A stretch of 41,950 nt of DNA from a virus: the IMG/VR virus record IMGVR_UViG_3300028735_000396, positions 1-41,950 of that record; one strand, written 5' to 3'. Each line of letters starts with the position of its first letter. The stretch's first letter is position 1. The notes below the pieces were generated by a model. That model did not search any database. It was not told where the DNA came from and saw only the letters and a program-made list of their open reading frames with translations. This document shows positions 4,642 through 20,978 of this stretch, piece by piece. Both the position numbers and the translations under genes were made by a program.

Positions 4642-7530
4642 ATGATCGATCTCAACGACGCGAGCGCTCCTCCGCCCCGCTTCGATCTCGATGCGATCGC
4701 CGCGCGCCTGCGGGACAGCGCGGCGATCTGGGTTCCGCAGCACTTCCCGAACGGGAGACGTGAAGGCGATGAATGGCGGCTCGCCAACATCCGCGGCGAC
4801 GCCCCGCGCAAGAACGGCTCCTGCGTCATCGCGCTTAAGGGCGAGCGCGCCGGGGACTGGATCGACTTCGACGGCGGCGATGGCGGCGGGCCGCTCGGCA
4901 CGCTTGCCGAGGCGACCGGCTATGTCGGGCACCAGCTGTTCGCCTATGCGGCCGAGCTGGCGGGAGAAGTCCCATCTGCGGCACGCCCGAGAAAGAAGGC
5001 TCCGCGCCAATCATCCGACGACGTGGCACGCGAGATCGCCTTCATCCTGTCGGGCGCACGGCCGATCGCCGGCACGCATGCGGCAGCATATCTCGCCGCC
5101 CGCGGGCTCGCGCTGCCGGCGTCGCCCGATCTTCTCTTTCATGACGATCTGACCCATTGGGAGGCGAAGCGCGGCTATCCCGGCATGGTCGCCGTCGTGC
5201 GCGACGCGGGCGGTGCGCAGGTCGCGCTTCACCGCACCTATCTCGATCCCGAGAAGCCCGCCAAGGCCGATGTTTCGCCTGCGCGCAAGACGCTCGGGCC
5301 GGTGGGCGGCGGCGCGGTGCGGCTGGCCGAGCCGCACGACGACCTCATCGCCCTGACGGAGGGCATCGAGACGGCACTCGCGGTGATGTCCGCATGCCCG
5401 GATCTGCCGGCCTGGGCGACGCTGTCCGCCTCCGGCATGGAGGGCCTTGTCCTGCCGCCCGGCATCGCGTGTGTCGTGCTGCTCGCCGACCATGACGAGG
5501 CTGGGCGCCGTGCCGCCGAGACAGCCGCCGCGAAGCTTGCGATGGAGGGTCGTCAGGTCTCCATCGCGCTGCCGCCGCGCGACGGCGACGACTTCAACGA
5601 CCTGCTCCTGCGCGACGGTCCGGAGGCGGTGAGGGCTGCCATCGATGCCGCCGTGGCATGGAGCGTAGACGGTGCCCAGCCGGCCGGCGACATGGGCACC
5701 CAACAGCTCGAAGTGGATCCCGTCATCGGCGCCACCGCGCCCGAACCCGACGAGGTGGCGCGCACCGCCGCGACCTATCCGCTGCCCTTCATCGAGGGCG
5801 TCGAGCTGCGCTACTTCCGCACCCGCAAGGGAGATGTCCTCGTCCACCGCAATGCCGGCAAGGACAAGGACGGGCATACCATCTGGCGCGTGGTCGCGAG
5901 CCCCTTCGGCATCCCCGCCCGGCTGCGCTATCTCGACCAGGAGGGCACCTACGGCCTGCGCCTGCTTGTCCGCGACATGCAGGGCGAGCCGCGCGCCGTC
6001 GACTTTCCGCGCGCTGGCCTTGCCCGCCAGGGTGCGCAGGAGATCCGCTCCGCTCTCTTCGCCGCGGGCCTGCGGAGCTATGGCGATGGCGACCAGGTCG
6101 CGCTGGCGGTCCTCAAAGCCGCCGATCCGCGGGATGAGATCCTCGTCGTCAGCCGGCCCGGCTGGCACCGGCTCGATGGCTGCGACCATCCTGTCTTCGT
6201 GACGCCGGCGGGCCGGGCGATCGGCGATGCGCCCGCCTCCACGCTGGAGCTGGTCGCCAACGCCCGCTACGACACCGTGCGTGGCAGCCTCGATGGCTGG
6301 AAGGCCGCGGCGGCTGCCGCGGCGTCCGTGAAGGGCTGTCCGCACTTCCTCCTCGGCGTGCTCGCCGGATTCTGTGGTGTCGTGCAGTCGCTCGCCGGTC
6401 TCGACAGCTGCGGCATCAATCTCTCCGGCCTCTCGTCGAGCGGCAAGACCACTGCCCAGCGCCTCGCCGTCTCGGCCTGGACCTCGACTGCCATCGGCGC
6501 CGGGCTCCTGCAGTCGATGCGCTCGACCGAGAACGCCATCGAGGTCTTCGCCCAGGCGGCGAGCGGCACAGTCCTCGCCCTCGACGAGCTCGCCCACGCC
6601 GACGGCCGGGCCATCGCCAAGCTCATCTACGCCATCGCCGGCGGCCAGGGAAAGGCGCGCATGACCGCGGGCGCCATGCTCAAGCAGCGCTATGCCTGGT
6701 CGACCTACGCGCTGCTCTCCAGCGAGTGCTCGCTGGAGGAGAAGGTGCGCGCCGACGGTGCGTCCTGGATCGCCGGCATGGCGGTACGCATCCTCGATGT
6801 CGACGTGACGGAGGTGGACCGCTCGGTGCCGGCGGCCAGGCTCAAGGCGATCGCCGACGCCGAGAGCCATTGCGGCCATGCCGGCCCTGCCTTCGTCGAG
6901 CGGCTGGTCGCGGCCAGGCTGCACCATGCGCCCGACGCGCTGCGCGACCGCATTCTCGAACAGGCGCGCGAGCTTGCAGGCGACCGTGCCGATTCCGCGC
7001 GGCTCAGAGCGGCGACCTGCCTTGCTCTCCCGCTCGTCGCTGGCAGGCTCGCCCAGGACTTCGATCTGCTGCCTTGGTCGCTCGACATCGAAGCGCCGGT
7101 CCGCTGGGCCTGGGAGCGCTTCGAGAAGTCCTCCGATGCCGAGGCGCTCACCCCCGACGAGCAGGGCATCGCGAGCCTGCGCGCCTGGATCGCGGAACGC
7201 TGGGACGTCACCATCAAATCCGTCGACATCGGCGTCGAGAGCTTCGACCGCAAGCTCAACAACCGGGAGGCCGTCGCCTGGTACGACGACGCGGCCATCT
7301 ATGTGCCCGCCCAGCGCCTGCGCGAAGCTGCGGGCGAAACGCTGAAGACCCAGCAGATCGTCAAGGCGCTCGCAGACCGGGACCTCCTCGCCATGCGCCA
7401 GGATCAGCGGCGCGCCACCGTGCGGTGGGTTCCGAAGATCGGCCGCATCGATGCCTATGCGCTCAAGCGCTCCGAGTTCGGCCGCCGCTCGGCCTGGACC
7501 GACCACGGAATGCAGGAGGACGAGGCATGA
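4642..7530 (+). CDS. Primase-helicase fusion: Toprim domain plus DUF927-like ATPase
   Basis: A 962-residue replication protein. The N-terminal third has a Toprim core: TEGIETALAV with the conserved Glu near residue 239 and LLADHDEAG with the DxD near residues 282-284, followed by DGDDFNDLLL. The second half has a Walker A motif LSSSGKTTAQRL near residue 598 and ALDELAHADG as Walker B, in a DUF927-like helicase context. No canonical CHC2 zinc finger is visible before the Toprim domain. It probably synthesises primers and unwinds DNA at the phage origin. It starts nine bases after the helicase stop, and the repeat field at 7559-7924 lies immediately downstream. Confidence 0.9.
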   Translation: MIDLNDASAPPPRFDLDAIAARLRDSAAIWVPQHFPNGRREGDEWRLANIRGDAPRKNGSCVIALKGERAGDWIDFDGGDGGGPLGTLAEATGYVGHQLFAYAAELAGEVPSAARPRKKAPRQSSDDVAREIAFILSGARPIAGTHAAAYLAARGLALPASPDLLFHDDLTHWEAKRGYPGMVAVVRDAGGAQVALHRTYLDPEKPAKADVSPARKTLGPVGGGAVRLAEPHDDLIALTEGIETALAVMSACPDLPAWATLSASGMEGLVLPPGIACVVLLADHDEAGRRAAETAAAKLAMEGRQVSIALPPRDGDDFNDLLLRDGPEAVRAAIDAAVAWSVDGAQPAGDMGTQQLEVDPVIGATAPEPDEVARTAATYPLPFIEGVELRYFRTRKGDVLVHRNAGKDKDGHTIWRVVASPFGIPARLRYLDQEGTYGLRLLVRDMQGEPRAVDFPRAGLARQGAQEIRSALFAAGLRSYGDGDQVALAVLKAADPRDEILVVSRPGWHRLDGCDHPVFVTPAGRAIGDAPASTLELVANARYDTVRGSLDGWKAAAAAAASVKGCPHFLLGVLAGFCGVVQSLAGLDSCGINLSGLSSSGKTTAQRLAVSAWTSTAIGAGLLQSMRSTENAIEVFAQAASGTVLALDELAHADGRAIAKLIYAIAGGQGKARMTAGAMLKQRYAWSTYALLSSECSLEEKVRADGASWIAGMAVRILDVDVTEVDRSVPAARLKAIADAESHCGHAGPAFVERLVAARLHHAPDALRDRILEQARELAGDRADSARLRAATCLALPLVAGRLAQDFDLLPWSLDIEAPVRWAWERFEKSSDAEALTPDEQGIASLRAWIAERWDVTIKSVDIGVESFDRKLNNREAVAWYDDAAIYVPAQRLREAAGETLKTQQIVKALADRDLLAMRQDQRRATVRWVPKIGRIDAYALKRSEFGRRSAWTDHGMQEDEA

Positions 7531-8012
7531 CGGCGCGCGCCCATCCGTGCACGCGCGTTGTGGCAAGTGTGGCACCTGTGGCCACGCATGGGCGTGTGGC
7601 CATTGTGGCACCTGTGGCCACTCCAGCCGCGCCGGGCGCCCGAGCAGGCATTCCAGTGGCCACACTTGCCACACGGCAAATCGCTGTGGCCACTGCTAAC
7701 GCATTGATGAACAAGGGTAGTTGCCACACTTTCCACCGTGGCCACAGCCGAGGGACAAATATAGGGAGTCCTTGTCCCTTCCGTTCGTGGGGAGAGACGC
7801 GGAGGGGTCGCGCGTCAATTTTATCTTTGAGAAGTGGAAAGTGTGGCAACTGTGGCCACTCGCCTTTCTCTTCAAGGGTTTATCAGTGGCCACATGAAAT
7901 TCCGATGTGGCAACTGTGGCCACTGGCGAAGATCGCCCGCCCGACGCTGACCCTTGTGGCGACGAGCGCCCCGCCACGGCAACGCGTCCGCGATCCTCCT
8001 GCCGATCGGTGA
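7527..8012 (+). CDS. Doubtful ORF spanning the TGTGGC repeat field
   Basis: An open frame of 161 codons starts at ATG 7527, overlapping the primase stop (ATGA). The translation is rich in Val-Ala-Thr/Pro triplets (VASVAPVATHGRVAIVAPVA) because the 9-base repeat equals three codons. I recall Val-Ala-Thr-rich small proteins annotated after primase-like genes in other proteobacterial elements, but the repeats later lose 9-base phase, occur on both strands and read as Cys-Gly-rich peptide in another frame. The ORF may therefore be incidental to a DNA-level function. Reported because the stretch is otherwise geneless. Confidence 0.25.
   Translation: MTARAHPCTRVVASVAPVATHGRVAIVAPVATPAAPGARAGIPVATLATRQIAVATANALMNKGSCHTFHRGHSRGTNIGSPCPFRSWGETRRGRASILSLRSGKCGNCGHSPFSSRVYQWPHEIPMWQLWPLAKIARPTLTLVATSAPPRQRVRDPPADR
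7559..7924. repeat. TGTGGC / GTGGCCAC repeat field after the primase-helicase gene
   Basis: Eight perfect copies of the 8-base palindrome GTGGCCAC start at 7578, 7614, 7656, 7686, 7738, 7852, 7886 and 7916. Related half-sites TGTGGCAA, TGTGGCAC or the reverse TTGCCACA occur at 7559, 7568, 7604, 7666, 7721, 7842 and 7906. From 7559 to 7621 the units fall in an exact 9-base rhythm. The 19-mer TGTGGCAACTGTGGCCACT occurs twice (7842-7860 and 7906-7924). AT-richer patches lie between (around 7815-7830). Candidate replication origin iterons or multi-site operator. Confidence 0.8.
7751..7779. other. Hairpin inside the repeat field
   Basis: Arms AGGGACAA (7751-7758) and TTGTCCCT (7772-7779) are perfectly complementary around a 13-base loop. 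No T-tract follows, so it is not an obvious intrinsic terminator; it may be a structural element of the surrounding repeat region. Confidence 0.45.
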
Positions 8013-8102: not shown

Positions 8103-8639
8103 ATGGCTTCGACGACTCTGACCGCGGCGTGTGCGGATGCAAGCCTGCCGGCGGTCGGCATGGCGCCGCCGCTCAGCGCCATCCTCTCTCTCGACCTCGG
8201 CACCACCATGGGGTGGGCCGTGCGCATGGCCGACGGAGCCATTCATAGTGGCGCCGTCTCCTTCCGCCCTAGCCGCTATGACGGCAGTGGCATGCGCTAC
8301 CTGCGCTTCCGCAACTGGCTCGACGGACTTGCCGCCGATGCCGGTGATCCCGGCGCGGTCTACTTCGAGGAGGTCCGGCGGCATGTCGGCACCGATGCGG
8401 CGCATCTCTACGGCGGTTTTCTAGCGACACTGACCGCCTGGTGCGAGGAGCGCGGTGTCGCTTACGAGGGCGTTCCGGTCGGCACCATCAAGCGCCACGT
8501 CACCGGCAGGGGCAACGCCGACAAGGCGGCGGTGATGGCAGCCGTCCGTGCTCGGGGCTTTGCGCCCGCGGACGACAACGAGGCCGACGCCATCGCCATC
8601 CTGCTCTGGGCGATCGAGACGCAGGGAGGCGTGCGATGA
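8103..8639 (+). CDS. RuvC-like Holliday junction resolvase
   Basis: A 178-residue RNase H-fold nuclease. SLDLGTTMGWA places the first catalytic Asp at residue 31, YFEEV the Glu at 89/90, and ADDNEADAIAIL the C-terminal acidic cluster (Asp157, 158, 162), the RuvC pattern. KRHVTGRGNADK is also typical of phage RuvC-like proteins. The start is ATG 8103, six bases after GGAG at 8093-8096; ATG 8160 is possible. The leader GGAGACCATCATGGCT recurs identically before the gene at 11050. The enzyme should resolve branched intermediates before packaging. The next gene overlaps by four bases. Confidence 0.88.
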   Translation: MASTTLTAACADASLPAVGMAPPLSAILSLDLGTTMGWAVRMADGAIHSGAVSFRPSRYDGSGMRYLRFRNWLDGLAADAGDPGAVYFEEVRRHVGTDAAHLYGGFLATLTAWCEERGVAYEGVPVGTIKRHVTGRGNADKAAVMAAVRARGFAPADDNEADAIAILLWAIETQGGVR

Positions 8640-12484: not shown

Positions 12485-13900
12485 ATGCGCGATCTTCGCT
12501 TTCAGGCATCGGCCATCGAGCAGTGGCCGATCGAGAAGCTTGTGGCCTATGCGGCGAACGCCCGGACCCACGACGAGAACCAGATAAGCCTCCTGGCGGG
12601 AAGCCTGGTGGAATATGGCTGGCTGGTGCCCTGCCTGGTCGACGACGAGGGCACGCTGATCGCGGGGCATGGCCGCGTGCTGGCGGCGCAGCGTCTGGGC
12701 CTCGAGACCGTCCCGGTGATCCGGATCTCGCATCTGACGCCGGCCCAGGCGCGGGCCTACCGGATTGCCGACAATCAGATCGCTCTCAACGCCGGCTGGA
12801 ACGAGGAGCTTCTCGCCGCCGAGCTGCACGCACTGAACGGCGACGGCTTCGATCTCGACGACCTCGGCTTCGACGAAGCCGAGCTCGACCGGCTGATGGC
12901 GCCGCTCGACGACACGGATGCGATGTCGTCGGACGGCGACACCGAAGAGAGCGGCGACGATGCAGACGAGACGCCCGAGCCGCCACGCAATCCGGTCACC
13001 CGGCCGGGCGATCTCTGGCGGCTCGGCGATCATCGGCTGCTCTGCGGCGACAGCACGGACGCAGAGTCTGTTGCCCGGATCATGGATGGCGAGCGCGCGT
13101 CGCTGCTGTTCACGAGCCCGCCCTATGGCAACCAGCGGAACTACACGACCGGCGGCATCGGCGACTGGGACGCCCTGATGCGCGGCGTCTTCGGCCACCT
13201 CGCCGAGGTGATGGCCGCGGACGGCCAGGTGCTCGTCAATCTCGGCCTCGTCCACCGCGACAACGAGTGGCAGCCCTATTGGGACGTGTGGCTCGACTGG
13301 ATGCGAGATCACGGCTGGCGCCGCTTCGGCCTTTACGTCTGGGACCAGGGGCCGGGGCTTCCCGGCGACTGGAACGGCCGGCTCGCGCCCGCCTTCGAGC
13401 TTCTCTTCCACTTCAATCGGCAAGCCCGGAAGCCGAACAAGATCGTGCCCTGCAAGTGGGCCGGCCACATCAACGACGCCCATGGCGGCATGCGGGGCAA
13501 GGACGGCACCGTGGGCGCGTGGACCCATGCTGGCCAGGGCGTCCAGGAGACCCGCATTCCCGACAACGTGCTGCGCATCATGCGTCACAAGGCGCGTGGG
13601 CTAGAGACCGAGCACCCGGCGGTGTTCCCGGTGGCGCTGCCCGAGTTCGTGATGCGCGCCTATAGCGACGAGGACAATGTCGTCTACGAGCCCTTCGCGG
13701 GTTCGGGCACCAGCATCATCGCCGGCGAGCGGACCGGCCGGCAGGTGCGAGCGATCGAGCTTGCACCGGAATACATCGACGTCGCGCTTCTGCGGTGGCG
13801 GCACCTCTTCCCCGATCAGCCAGTGATCCTCGATGGCGGGACCGAAGACTTCGAAGCGGTCGCACGGCAGCGCGACGTTGAGATTGCGCCGAGTGCTTGA
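12485..13900 (+). CDS. ParB-like domain fused to DNA methyltransferase (TSPPY type)
   Basis: A 471-residue fusion. Residues 1-115 are a ParB/Srx-like domain (NARTHDENQI, LIAGHGRVLAAQRLG, YRIADNQIAL). An acidic linker leads to the methyltransferase: RPGDLWRLGDHRLLCGDS, catalytic TSPPYG near residue 209 and the SAM-binding motif EPFAGSGTS near residue 402, a beta-class order. TSPPY is typical of N4-cytosine enzymes, whereas the paralogue downstream has DPPY. It probably modifies phage DNA against host restriction. Start ATG 12485 follows a G-rich spacer with only weak AAGAAA upstream. Confidence 0.9.
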   Translation: MRDLRFQASAIEQWPIEKLVAYAANARTHDENQISLLAGSLVEYGWLVPCLVDDEGTLIAGHGRVLAAQRLGLETVPVIRISHLTPAQARAYRIADNQIALNAGWNEELLAAELHALNGDGFDLDDLGFDEAELDRLMAPLDDTDAMSSDGDTEESGDDADETPEPPRNPVTRPGDLWRLGDHRLLCGDSTDAESVARIMDGERASLLFTSPPYGNQRNYTTGGIGDWDALMRGVFGHLAEVMAADGQVLVNLGLVHRDNEWQPYWDVWLDWMRDHGWRRFGLYVWDQGPGLPGDWNGRLAPAFELLFHFNRQARKPNKIVPCKWAGHINDAHGGMRGKDGTVGAWTHAGQGVQETRIPDNVLRIMRHKARGLETEHPAVFPVALPEFVMRAYSDEDNVVYEPFAGSGTSIIAGERTGRQVRAIELAPEYIDVALLRWRHLFPDQPVILDGGTEDFEAVARQRDVEIAPSA

Positions 13901-14011: not shown

Positions 14012-15274
14012 ATGAAAGACCTTCGCTTCCAGTCCTCGGCGATCGAGCTTTGGCCAATCGACCGGCTCATCCCCTATGCGGGCAACGCGCGTGTGCACGG
14101 CGAGGATCAGGTGGCAAGGCTTGCCGAAAGCCTCGTGCGCTTCGGCTGGACCGCACCCTGCCTCGTCGATGAACGCGGTGTGCTGGTCGCCGGTCACGGC
14201 CGGCTGCTTGCGGCCCGGAAGATCGGGCTCAGGGAAGTGCCGGTCATCCGCCTCGACCACTTGAGCGACGCGGAGGCGCGTGCCTACCGCATCGCCGACA
14301 ACAAGCTGACCGAGCTTGCCGGCTGGGACGACGAGATGCTCGCCGCGGAGGTGGCGCGCCTGAAGGAGGATGGGGTCGATCTCGACCTCCTCGGCTTCGG
14401 CGAGGACGAGCTCGACCAGCTGCTCGAAGGCTTGGACGACACCGATGGTGTGACGGACGGCGAGGACGACGTTCCGGAGCCGCCTGTGGAACCCGTCACC
14501 CGCCCGGGCGACCTCTGGCTGCTTGGCGCGCATCGCCTGCTCTGCGGCGACGCCACCAGTACGAGCGACGTCGAGAGGCTGCTCGCCGGAGGGGTCCCGC
14601 ATCTGATGGTGACGGACCCGCCCTATGGGGTTGAGTACGATCCTTCCTGGCGCAATGAGGCCGGCGTGTCGGCGACCGCGCGCACCGGCCGGGTTTCGAA
14701 CGATGACCGGGCCGACTGGCGCGAGGCCTGGGCGCTGTTCCCGGGCGACGTGGCCTACGTTTGGCACGCGGGCGTCCATGTGCGCACCGTCGCTGAAAGC
14801 CTGGAGTCCTGCGGGCTGATAATCAGCTCGCAGATCATCTGGGCGAAGCCGCGCTTCGTGCTCGGCCGCGGCGACTACCATTGGCAGCACGAGCCGTGCT
14901 TCTACGTGGTCCGCAAGGGCGCGAACGGGCACTGGCAGGGCGCGCGGGATCAGTCGACGCTATGGACGATCGGCAGCGGCGGCGATGAGGATGAAGCGAC
15001 CACGCACGGGACGCAGAAGCCGGTCGAGTGCATGCGCCGGCCGATCGTCAACAACAGCAAGCGAGGCGATCTGGTCTACGAGCCTTTTGCCGGCAGCGGC
15101 TCCACGATCATTGCGGCAGAGAGCACCGGGCGTGCCTGCCTCGCGCTGGAGATCGACCCGCGCTACTGCGACGTCATTGTCGAGAGATGGCAGGCGTTCA
15201 CGGGATCGTCCGCGATCCTCGATGGCGAGGGGCGGACCTTTGGGGACCTGAAGGACGAGCGGGCGGCGGCGTGA
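14012..15274 (+). CDS. ParB-like domain fused to DNA methyltransferase (DPPY type)
   Basis: A 420-residue paralogue of the preceding gene with the same start (MKDLRFQSSAIELWPIDRL) and ParB-like residues (NARVHGEDQVARLAESLVRF, VLVAGHGRLLAARKIG, YRIADNKLTEL). The catalytic motif is TDPPYG near residue 201 and the SAM motif EPFAGSGST near residue 357. DPPY is typical of N6-adenine enzymes, so the pair may modify different bases. It could protect phage DNA or, with the ParB domain, be directed to particular sites. The stop overlaps the next gene (GTGA). Confidence 0.9.
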   Translation: MKDLRFQSSAIELWPIDRLIPYAGNARVHGEDQVARLAESLVRFGWTAPCLVDERGVLVAGHGRLLAARKIGLREVPVIRLDHLSDAEARAYRIADNKLTELAGWDDEMLAAEVARLKEDGVDLDLLGFGEDELDQLLEGLDDTDGVTDGEDDVPEPPVEPVTRPGDLWLLGAHRLLCGDATSTSDVERLLAGGVPHLMVTDPPYGVEYDPSWRNEAGVSATARTGRVSNDDRADWREAWALFPGDVAYVWHAGVHVRTVAESLESCGLIISSQIIWAKPRFVLGRGDYHWQHEPCFYVVRKGANGHWQGARDQSTLWTIGSGGDEDEATTHGTQKPVECMRRPIVNNSKRGDLVYEPFAGSGSTIIAAESTGRACLALEIDPRYCDVIVERWQAFTGSSAILDGEGRTFGDLKDERAAA

Positions 15275-17900: not shown

Positions 17901-20900
17901 GTGGATGATTTCTTCGCCTTCGACGGCGCGGATGACCTCGTCCGCTGCTGGAGGGAAGGGCTTGCGCCCGACCCTGTGCTCACGGTCTCGGAATGGGCCG
18001 ACCGCCACCGTATCTTGAGCCCGCGCGCCTCGGCGGAACCCGGGCGCTATCGGACCGACCGCACGCCCTATATGCGCGCGATCGTGGACGCGCTGTCGCC
18101 GTCGCACCCCGCCCGGCGCGTCGTCTTCATGAAGGCGGCGCAGGTCGGCGCGCCGCTCGCTACATCGACACCGGTCCCGACCGCCGAAGGCTGGAAGACG
18201 ATGGGCGAACTCGTGGCGGGCGACGTGCTGTTCGACGAGCAGGGCCGGGTCTGTCGCGTCACCGGCGTCTCGCCGGTCATGATCGGCCGGCTCTGCTACG
18301 CCATTACCTTCGACGATGACGAAGACGTCGTTTGTGACGGAAGCCATCGCTGGCCGGTCTGGGATTTCACCGATGCCGAGCAGCCGCGCTCGAAAGTTTT
18401 GCGCACCGACGAGATGCTGGGACGAGTCCGAATCGGCTCCGGCAAACGCTATCGTTACGCGATCGACTGCTGCGAGCCGCTCGATTTGCCCGAGCAGGAT
18501 CTGATCGTTCATCCTTATGTGTTGGGGCTCTGGCTCGGCGACGGCTCCGCCGTCATGAACCATGTGAGCGTCCACGAGGATGACGCGGAAATCGCCGAGC
18601 ACCTCCACGCCTGCGGCGTCGAGGCCGAGTTCCGGCTGCCGCGCTGGCGCAAGGGGAGATGCGCCAACGTGGTGATCGATCCGACCTTTCGGACGGTCAA
18701 CGACGCCGGGCGGCCGGCGAGCGTTCAGCACCGCTCTCGCTTCACGACGCGACTGCGCCAACTCGATGTGCTGGAGAACAAGCACATCCCGGTGCCGTAC
18801 TTGCGCGCGAGCCGCGAGCAGCGCTTGGAGCTCGTCCGCGGCCTCATGGATTCCGACGGGACGATCTCGCCGAACGGAAAGCGCTGCGAGTTCTCGAACA
18901 CCGACGGTCGGCTCATCGAGGGCTTGATCGAGCTGCTGCGTGGGCTTGGATACAAGCCGACGGTCTATCGGACGAACTCCCGCCGCCGCGGCATCGGAGG
19001 GCAAGATCGCGCGTATCTGGGCTATTGGCGCGTTTCCTGGACTGCCTACGCCGAAGAGCCCATGTTCAGGCTGTCGCGCAAGGTCGCGCGCATGCGCTCG
19101 ATCGAGAAGGGGTGCCCGTGGCGGTCCCGGCGCCGACGGATCGTCGATATCCGGCCGGTGCCAAGCGTGCCGGTGCGATGCATCTCGGTCGATTCACCCA
19201 GTCACCTCTATCTTTGCGGGAAGGGGTGGATTCCGACCCACAACACCGAGGCCGGCAACAACTGGATCGGCTACGTCATCCACCATGCGCCGGGGCCGAT
19301 GCTCGCCGTCCAGCCGACGGTCGAGCTCGCCAAGCGTTTCTCGCGCCAGCGCATCGATCCGCTGATCGCCGAGAGTCCGAGCTTGCGCGAGCGGGTGAAG
19401 CCGGCGCGCGCACGCGACGCCGGCAACACGGTGCTGTCGAAGGAGTTCCCGGCCGGGCTTCTGGTCATCACCGGCGCCAACTCGGCGGTCGGTCTGCGCT
19501 CGATGCCGGCGCGCTACCTCTTCCTCGACGAGGTCGACGCCTATCCGCCCTCGGCCGACGAGGAAGGCGATCCGGTCGCGCTCGCCGAGGCGCGCACACG
19601 CACCTTCTCCTGGCGAAGCAAGGTGTTCATGACCTCGACGCCGACGATCCATGGGATCTCGCGCATCGAGCGTGAGTACGAGGCGTCCGACCAGCGCCGC
19701 TTCTTCGTGCCGTGCCCGCACTGCAGCCACCGCCAGTGGCTCAGGTTCGAGCGGCTCAAATGGGACAAGGGCAGGCCGGAGACGGCGCACTACCTGTGCG
19801 AGGCCTGCGACGGCGCGATTCAAGAGCACCACAAGACGGCAATGCTGATCGCCGGCGAGTGGCGGCCGACGGCCGAGCCTTCCGATGCGGCGACGATCGG
19901 CTTCCACCTCTCGGCGCTCTACTCGCCGGTCGGCTGGCTGTCGTGGGAGACGATCGCGCGCCTGTGGGAGGCCGCCACCACCGACGAGGCCAGGCGCAGC
20001 TTCAAGAACGGCGTGCTCGGCGAGACTTGGATCGAGACCGGCGAGGCGCCCGACTGGCAGCGTCTCTACGAGCGGCGTGAGGACTTCGCCATCGGCACGG
20101 TGCCGGCGGGCGGGCTGTTCCTGACGGCGGGAGCCGACGTACAGAAGGACCGGATCGAGGTCTCGGTCTGGGCCTGGGGGCGCGGCCTCACCAGCTGGCT
20201 CGTCGACCACATCGTGATCGACGGCGGCCCGGAACACGCTTCAGCCTGGGCGGAGCTCTCCGCACTCCTCGACCGCACTTGGCTACACGCAAACGGGCAG
20301 CGGCTCGGCCTCGCGAAGCTCGGGATCGACACCGGCTACGAGACGCCGGCAGTCTACGCCTGGGCGCGCCAAGCCGGCTTCGCGCAGGTGGCGCCCGTGA
20401 AGGGCGTCGAGGGCTTCAACCGCGCCGCACCCGTGGTCGGGCCGAGCTATGTCGACGTGACGACGAGCGGCCGCAAGCTGCGCCGTGGGGCGCGGCTCTG
20501 GACCGTGGCCGTCGCCACCTTCAAGAGCGAGACCTACCGCTTCCTGCGGCTCGGCCGGCCGACGGAGGACGAGCTTGCCAAGGGGGCGCAGCATCCGACC
20601 GGCTACGTCCATCTGCCGAAGGGGACGGAGGCCGAATGGGTCAAGCAGCTGGTTGCCGAGCAGCTGGTGACCGTCAAGACCAAGCGCGGCTTCCAGCGCC
20701 TCGAATGGCAGAAGCTGCGCGAGCGCAACGAGGTCCTGGACTGCCGCGTCTACGCCCGCGCCGCCGCCTGGATCGCAGGGATCGACCGCTGGAGCGAAGC
20801 GACCTGGCGCGACCTGGAAGCGCAGATCGCAGTGAAGGATGGCGAGAGCGAAACGATGCCGGAGGGAGATGATCCGACTGCGGAGCCGGACTCCTCCGAG

Positions 20901-20978
20901 ACACCCTCGGCCGGCCTCCTGCGGCGTGAGCGCCGGCCGCGCGGCCGGCGTGTGTTCACGCCGAGCTACTTGTCCTGA
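17901..20978 (+). CDS. Terminase large subunit (GpA family) interrupted by an intein
   Basis: A 1025-codon frame that leaves a 661-residue GpA-type terminase when residues 85-448 are removed. The N extein ends FMKAAQVGA and the C extein resumes TEAGNNWIGYVI, which together rebuild the usual GpA motif. Further on, YLFLDEVDAYP is Walker B, CPHC...CEAC a zinc knuckle, and GADVQKDRIEVSVW and LGIDTGYET carry nuclease acidic residues. The protein cuts and pumps DNA into the prohead. GTG 17901 is the only in-frame start: TAG lies at 17895. The last codons and stop fall in a dispersed repeat. Confidence 0.95.
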   Translation: MDDFFAFDGADDLVRCWREGLAPDPVLTVSEWADRHRILSPRASAEPGRYRTDRTPYMRAIVDALSPSHPARRVVFMKAAQVGAPLATSTPVPTAEGWKTMGELVAGDVLFDEQGRVCRVTGVSPVMIGRLCYAITFDDDEDVVCDGSHRWPVWDFTDAEQPRSKVLRTDEMLGRVRIGSGKRYRYAIDCCEPLDLPEQDLIVHPYVLGLWLGDGSAVMNHVSVHEDDAEIAEHLHACGVEAEFRLPRWRKGRCANVVIDPTFRTVNDAGRPASVQHRSRFTTRLRQLDVLENKHIPVPYLRASREQRLELVRGLMDSDGTISPNGKRCEFSNTDGRLIEGLIELLRGLGYKPTVYRTNSRRRGIGGQDRAYLGYWRVSWTAYAEEPMFRLSRKVARMRSIEKGCPWRSRRRRIVDIRPVPSVPVRCISVDSPSHLYLCGKGWIPTHNTEAGNNWIGYVIHHAPGPMLAVQPTVELAKRFSRQRIDPLIAESPSLRERVKPARARDAGNTVLSKEFPAGLLVITGANSAVGLRSMPARYLFLDEVDAYPPSADEEGDPVALAEARTRTFSWRSKVFMTSTPTIHGISRIEREYEASDQRRFFVPCPHCSHRQWLRFERLKWDKGRPETAHYLCEACDGAIQEHHKTAMLIAGEWRPTAEPSDAATIGFHLSALYSPVGWLSWETIARLWEAATTDEARRSFKNGVLGETWIETGEAPDWQRLYERREDFAIGTVPAGGLFLTAGADVQKDRIEVSVWAWGRGLTSWLVDHIVIDGGPEHASAWAELSALLDRTWLHANGQRLGLAKLGIDTGYETPAVYAWARQAGFAQVAPVKGVEGFNRAAPVVGPSYVDVTTSGRKLRRGARLWTVAVATFKSETYRFLRLGRPTEDELAKGAQHPTGYVHLPKGTEAEWVKQLVAEQLVTVKTKRGFQRLEWQKLRERNEVLDCRVYARAAAWIAGIDRWSEATWRDLEAQIAVKDGESETMPEGDDPTAEPDSSETPSAGLLRRERRPRGRRVFTPSYLS
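18153..19244 (+). mobile_element. Intein with LAGLIDADG homing endonuclease, class 3-like
   Basis: A 364-residue in-frame intein (terminase residues 85-448). It begins PLATSTPVPTAEGW, with Pro where class 1 inteins have Cys or Ser. Block B is CDGSHRWPVW (His149, Trp151), block F is VRCISVD (Cys427), and the end is GWIPTHN followed by Thr449. Trp in block B, Cys in block F and Thr at +1 are the WCT signature of class 3 inteins. YVLGLWLGDGS (206-216) and LVRGLMDSDGTI (311-322) are the two LAGLIDADG motifs, with NKHIP between, so the homing enzyme looks intact. Confidence 0.92.

Follow-up and report, generated by a model that had tools for sequence, protein, structure and literature searches.

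Here we describe a field of short repeats in 41,950 bp of viral DNA (positions 1 to 41,950 of IMG/VR virus record IMGVR_UViG_3300028735_000396; hereafter the window), which is very probably a phage replication origin. Its 9-bp iterons would be recognised by a C-terminal winged-helix domain in the primase-helicase, whose gene lies immediately upstream. The array has a 9-bp period, lies behind the primase-helicase gene and evolves as a nucleotide sequence rather than as a protein. Covariation, fold and layout point to the primase-helicase as the candidate binder, and we infer that the iterons are bound and that the field has origin activity. The best reading is a SaPI-type Rep/iteron origin in tailed phages of Alphaproteobacteria.

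Architecture of the repeat field

A preliminary description had drawn attention to eight identical palindromes and to half-sites denser than chance, in both orientations and partly in an exact 9-base rhythm, together with a perfect 19-base repeat and AT-richer patches. These observations hold. All eight copies of GTGGCCAC in the window fall at 7578-7923 (0.80 expected), a number reached in 0 of 100 shuffles. Between 7531 and 8010, GTGGC is found at 26 half-sites, 15 forward and 11 reverse (palindromes scored on both strands), compared with 2.7 in shuffles (largest 11) and with five in the richest 480-bp interval of the rest of the window. Seven same-strand neighbour pairs in this interval are spaced by exactly 9 bp (shuffles 0.005, largest 1). 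The perfect 19-bp direct repeat TGTGGCAACTGTGGCCACT occupies 7842-7860 and 7906-7924, and a perfect 18-bp inverted repeat lies at 7719-7736 and 7834-7851. Within the field, GC content drops locally to 0.50-0.57, against 0.69 for the window. No Rfam match to the field exceeded the gathering score for a structured RNA.

The emphasis on palindromes did not survive comparison. The true repeat unit in this phage is a 9-bp iteron, TGTGGC[CA]AC, mostly arranged in twos and threes; GTGGCCAC looks palindromic because the C at position 6 makes this unit identical to its reverse complement. Relatives retain the array without the palindromes, and we rejected the palindrome as the functional or conserved unit. 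The iteron groups are placed in opposite orientations around a core, in the order 3+3 forward, 2 inverted, 1, TCAA-N4-TTA, 3 inverted, core, 3 forward, TCAA-N4-TTA, 1 and 2 forward. The features are as follows (window coordinates, strand).

4642-7530, plus: primase-helicase, 962 aa, proposed initiator (Pfam; PHROG DNA primase)
7063-7527, plus: its last 155 aa, proposed iteron-binding domain (AF2 model, fold match, covariation)
7402-7404 and 7426-7428, plus: predicted wing residues D921 and W929, respectively
7559-7585, plus: three tandem 9-bp iterons, TGTGGCAAG TGTGGCACC TGTGGCCAC
7595-7621, plus: three tandem 9-bp iterons, TGTGGCCAT TGTGGCACC TGTGGCCAC
7655-7673, minus: two inverted iterons
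7685-7693, plus: single palindromic iteron
7697-7707, minus: IHF-core-like TCAA-N4-TTA, 12/13 match to WATCAANNNNTTR, kept in ten origins
7719-7747, minus: three inverted iterons, the middle one degenerate (GGTGGAAAG)
7748-7832, no strand: core between the inverted arms, 55% GC, candidate unwinding/loading region
7806-7815, plus: GGTCGCGCGT, invariant across ten aligned origins
7833-7859, plus: three forward iterons, AGTGGAAAG TGTGGCAAC TGTGGCCAC
7872-7882, plus: second, inverted TCAA-N4-TTA element, TCAAGGGTTTA
7885-7894, minus: single iteron
7906-7923, plus: two tandem iterons, TGTGGCAAC TGTGGCCAC
8103-8639, plus: RuvC-like resolvase, conserved downstream neighbour (PHROG)

Both inverted TCAA-N4-TTA elements, like the invariant GGTCGCGCGT, recur in ten aligned origins that are otherwise ~64% identical. 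The core is moderately AT-rich (55% GC against 69% in the window), and strongly AT-rich only in the Magnetospirillum relatives. GGTCGCGCGT itself is GC-rich and alternating, and has no second copy anywhere in the window.

The primase-helicase combines a DUF7146 and Toprim_3 primase, a DUF927 helicase (Pfam E=6.6e-37) and a C-terminal winged-helix domain (aa ~808-945). Profile comparison matched the helicase best to SCCmec Cch (5dgk; 1.2e-12), and also to SaPIbov1 Rep (8tch; 2.6e-5). For the AF2 model of the C-terminal domain (pLDDT 74.8), the top PDB fold match was SaPIbov1 Rep 8tch (probability 1.00, E 5.3e-4), with a moderate TM-score of 0.51. Upstream lie genes for a Sak4-like annealing protein, a Cas4-type exonuclease and a Dda-like helicase, and the early genes around the primase-helicase, including that of the RuvC-like resolvase, are common to relatives. 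An HNH endonuclease gene between conserved early genes (2172-2597) is present in one compared relative only and is likely a mobile insertion. Two adjacent N6/N4 DNA methyltransferases (12485-13900 and 14012-15274) are conserved near the replication module in relatives; the first carries a weak ParB_N domain, below the Pfam cutoff. The terminase large subunit (17901-20975; GpA ATPase and nuclease) is interrupted at aa 306-361 by a LAGLIDADG domain, probably an intein.

Conservation of the array and covariation with the primase-helicase

The field sits after the primase-helicase gene in almost every relative, the outcome of the motif check that the preliminary description had proposed. The unit sequence changes as a whole between lineages and the 9-bp period is usually kept. 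Units include GTGGCCACt or GTGGCCCAC in Magnetospirillum, GGTGGCCCC in L146, L149 and L151, CTGGCTAC in L150, TTTCCCCAA in L158, TTTTCCCGG in L159 and TTTGGTCAG in L216, a locus found through its C-terminal domain. In most window-clade relatives, the strongest repeat lag downstream of the gene is 9. In L007, an insertion separates the array from the gene by 2.4 kb, and L004 and L063 show a leading lag of 10 or 20 rather than 9. The fields of L004, L006 and L063 consist of GTGGCCCAC units with leading lags of 10 or 20 bp, and this lineage has F at wing position 929.

A helicase search of plasmids and phages returned only distant DUF927 proteins, useful as outgroups; further viral scans mostly returned loci already in the set. 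Lag 9 leads after several distant DUF927 genes as well (phiAH14b, pMNOD05, Skermanella pSR-7, a Legionella plasmid and a Kosakonia plasmid), and in plasmid pMNOD05 the DUF927 protein is the only recognisable replication protein annotated. Others (L219/L227, L221, L225, L226 and L229) are followed by no clear 9-bp array. GC skew, whose analysis the preliminary description had also proposed, switches sign at the window's field (from -0.041 to +0.052) and rises, often slightly, in 15 of 16 related loci, which weakly favours an origin.

At base 7 of the iteron (xGTGGCyN), A predominates in one set of loci, and C or some other base that is not A in the rest. This class (A or not A) matches primase-helicase residue 921 (D or N) and residue 929 (W/Y or F/H), each in 22 of 22 loci. 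Across ten conserved early proteins, 3 of ~3,500 columns separate the two classes, and all three belong to the primase (921, 929 and the hypervariable residue 109); the nine other proteins contain none. In the AF2 model of the C-terminal winged helix, both 921 and 929 map to the predicted wing. The window-clade tree requires four class changes, and three independent pairs on supported branches are concordant (3/3; p=0.25), which alone is not significant; the significance of the covariation is supplied by a sister clade. L211 (1072-1983), a truncated primase-helicase remnant in a genome contig, has D-type wing residues and no iteron array, and was dropped as an additional test case.

The sister clade comprises loci that match only the Toprim half of the protein and encode a different helicase, PHROG 10537. 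A lag-9 array is present in 89 of its 110 loci (other lags: 5), and 64 of these 89 arrays lie wholly inside the longest open reading frame, at its 3' end. The units (for example, ACGTTCCCC, AGGTTCACA and AGGTCCCCC) occur in both orientations and encode different peptides (such as GER and RSP), so that selection acts on the DNA. In L009-L132 (~7.4-7.9 kb), the array is translated within the primase-helicase and is usually followed by a conserved C-terminal tail of the DWLK[EG] type, which may bind a replication partner. Among 68 distinct sister primase-helicases, A-type and C-type arrays are told apart without exception by 3 of 968 columns: residues 876, 878 and 879 of L021, with 877 nearly separating. 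Residue 878 is H in 43/43 C-type and R or Q in 25/25 A-type proteins. Columns 899-980 correlate as well, but trivially, being encoded by the array itself. The separating residues cluster where the chain turns from the penultimate to the final predicted strand, at the predicted wing tip; the C-terminal model of the sister protein, of middling confidence, gave no significant PDB match in the fold search. The tree needs 12 changes, and the independent supported switches are concordant in 10 of 10 cases (p=0.002). This covariation strongly supports recognition of the iterons by the predicted C-terminal wing, and indicates that the C-terminal domain would set iteron specificity.

Magnetospirillum SS-4 holds an N/C-type prophage (L004) and a D/A-type prophage (L007), and a second genome also holds both types (L207/L061 and L214/L062, each pair being one sequence present in two records). 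Two genomes make a small sample, but opposite iteron classes in co-resident prophages fit selection for origins that do not cross-react. More broadly, we consider it reasonably likely that alphaproteobacterial phage primase-helicases of two helicase clades share one origin design, with iterons of 9-bp period that adjoin the 3' end of the gene itself or lie within it, and with a few C-terminal wing residues setting an iteron base in a readable code, by which prophages sharing a host appear to keep their origins orthogonal.

Alternative functions of the field

An ATGA overlapping the primase stop at 7527 opens a 161-aa frame across the array (7527-8012), and the preliminary description had named a repeat protein as a competing explanation, to be judged by whether constraint falls on amino acids or on nucleotides. 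Such a protein would contain Val-Ala-x repeats; a good Shine-Dalgarno sequence precedes its frame, which in many relatives stays open for 123-208 codons. Substitutions in the field are nevertheless spread evenly over the three codon positions in three groups of relatives (271/220/226, 559/549/576 and 72/76/70), against 73/90/388, 250/159/776 and 12/16/110 in the adjoining primase, and the constraint is therefore on nucleotides. The units are, moreover, present in both orientations, and L154 has frame-shifting differences of 1, 16 and 22 bp. A repeat protein as the main function is refuted by the even substitutions, making this explanation extremely unlikely. Possibly the frame is a relic of an in-gene array as in the sister clade. 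Purposeless expansion of the repeats by chance or mutation would suit the high GC content, the short units and the variable unit number among close relatives (45-bp and 30-bp differences). Its probability is practically negligible, given that place, period, inverted architecture and invariant core are conserved over divergent phages and that the protein covariation is concordant.

The preliminary description had left the choice between an iteron origin and a multi-site operator; position, unit evolution and wing covariation best support the origin. As an operator, the repeats would be bound by a small phage repressor controlling the early operon. The field is indeed intergenic and inside that operon, and tandem 8-9 bp palindromes also suit regulators of the MetJ/Arc type. 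No conserved regulator of the ribbon-helix-helix type was found to covary with the sites, however, as none of the nine other conserved early proteins has a column separating the iteron classes. DUF6362, the main small candidate, is not found in L150, yet L150 keeps its array, leaving neither this nor another small conserved protein supported as the binder. The covarying residues fall in the primase-helicase in two clades, and the sister-clade array is mostly inside coding sequence; we regard an operator as quite unlikely. Some plasmid centromeres are likewise marked by tandem short repeats in both orientations, and the field could in principle be a partition site or organise the DNA in another way. 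No partition ATPase was recognised among the annotated genes, the weak ParB_N match (12485-13897) is fused to a methyltransferase, and the array tracks the primase-helicase; a site of this kind is very unlikely.

Proposed mechanism and comparison with known systems

For the replication origin, we propose the following mechanism. The C-terminal winged-helix domain of the primase-helicase would bind the 9-bp iterons (xGTGGC[CA]AC), of which oppositely oriented groups of two or three flank the core with its invariant GGTCGCGCGT. The two inverted TCAA-N4-TTA elements are probably the target of IHF or a comparable DNA-bending protein, which would fold the arms together; with so short a consensus, the assignment to IHF is a guess. 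The helicase domain (DUF927) would next encircle the duplex, perhaps as a pair of hexamers arranged head to head: a 9-bp step would turn successive sites by ~50 degrees, near the 60 degrees of a hexamer. The helicase would open the core, whose role in unwinding or loading is likewise a guess, and the Toprim domain would prime. The 9-bp period common to phages and plasmids suggests a shared geometry for self-loading hexameric initiators.

This reading supplies a testable origin and initiator for a large group of phages of Alphaproteobacteria in which the helicase carries no annotation beyond DUF927 or is labelled unknown. Initiator-origin recognition is usually studied replicon by replicon; the independent changes of specificity, 3 in the window clade and 10 in its sister, make it readable from sequence as a code, which natural domains allow to be checked. 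In a literature search that covered mainly non-subscription journals, we saw no previous account linking iterons to DUF927 phage proteins, and the SCCmec paper was the only match pairing iterons with DUF927.

Among known systems, the iterons of lambda ori lie inside the O gene, as the sister-clade arrays lie inside theirs; O recruits the helicase and has longer iterons, whereas the phage initiator here is the helicase itself. The alpha protein of phage P4 acts on short ori/crr iterons in both orientations, and resembles the present protein as a single primase, helicase and origin binder. Its primase and helicase are of types other than those of the DUF7146-Toprim-DUF927 protein. The fusion of primase, helicase and origin binder in alpha is documented (PMC7145576). 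No P4 alpha structure was among the fold matches listed for the C-terminal model.

SCCmec encodes the self-loading helicases Cch and Cch2, of which Cch (5dgk) is the best sequence match to the phage helicase. The C-terminal domain of Cch2 binds AAGTG iterons downstream of the Cch2 gene, three of them within a 23-bp repeat region (PMC7581432); by our own deduction from that length, 9-bp spacing would fit. Cch2 differs in belonging to another helicase family, in having a separate primase and in residing on a chromosomal cassette rather than a phage.

In SaPIbov1-type origins, sets of iterons flank a strongly AT-rich region. Rep and the phage protein share the DUF927 helicase family, and the predicted C-terminal fold matches 8tch moderately. 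Both have short iterons directly 3' of the initiator gene, and the C-terminal domain of SaPI Rep recognises iterons directly downstream of rep (PMC7581432). The SaPI-like element PT1028 has lag-9 repeats 3' of its gene too, at a marginal level. The phage initiator is, by contrast, fused to a Toprim primase, and is found in tailed-phage genomes of Alphaproteobacteria rather than in a Gram-positive satellite, with GC-rich 9-bp units in twos and threes, an invariant GC core and two IHF-like elements. The phage thus resembles the SaPI Rep design in sequence, fold and layout, and differs from it in the fused primase, the host group, the unit and the core.
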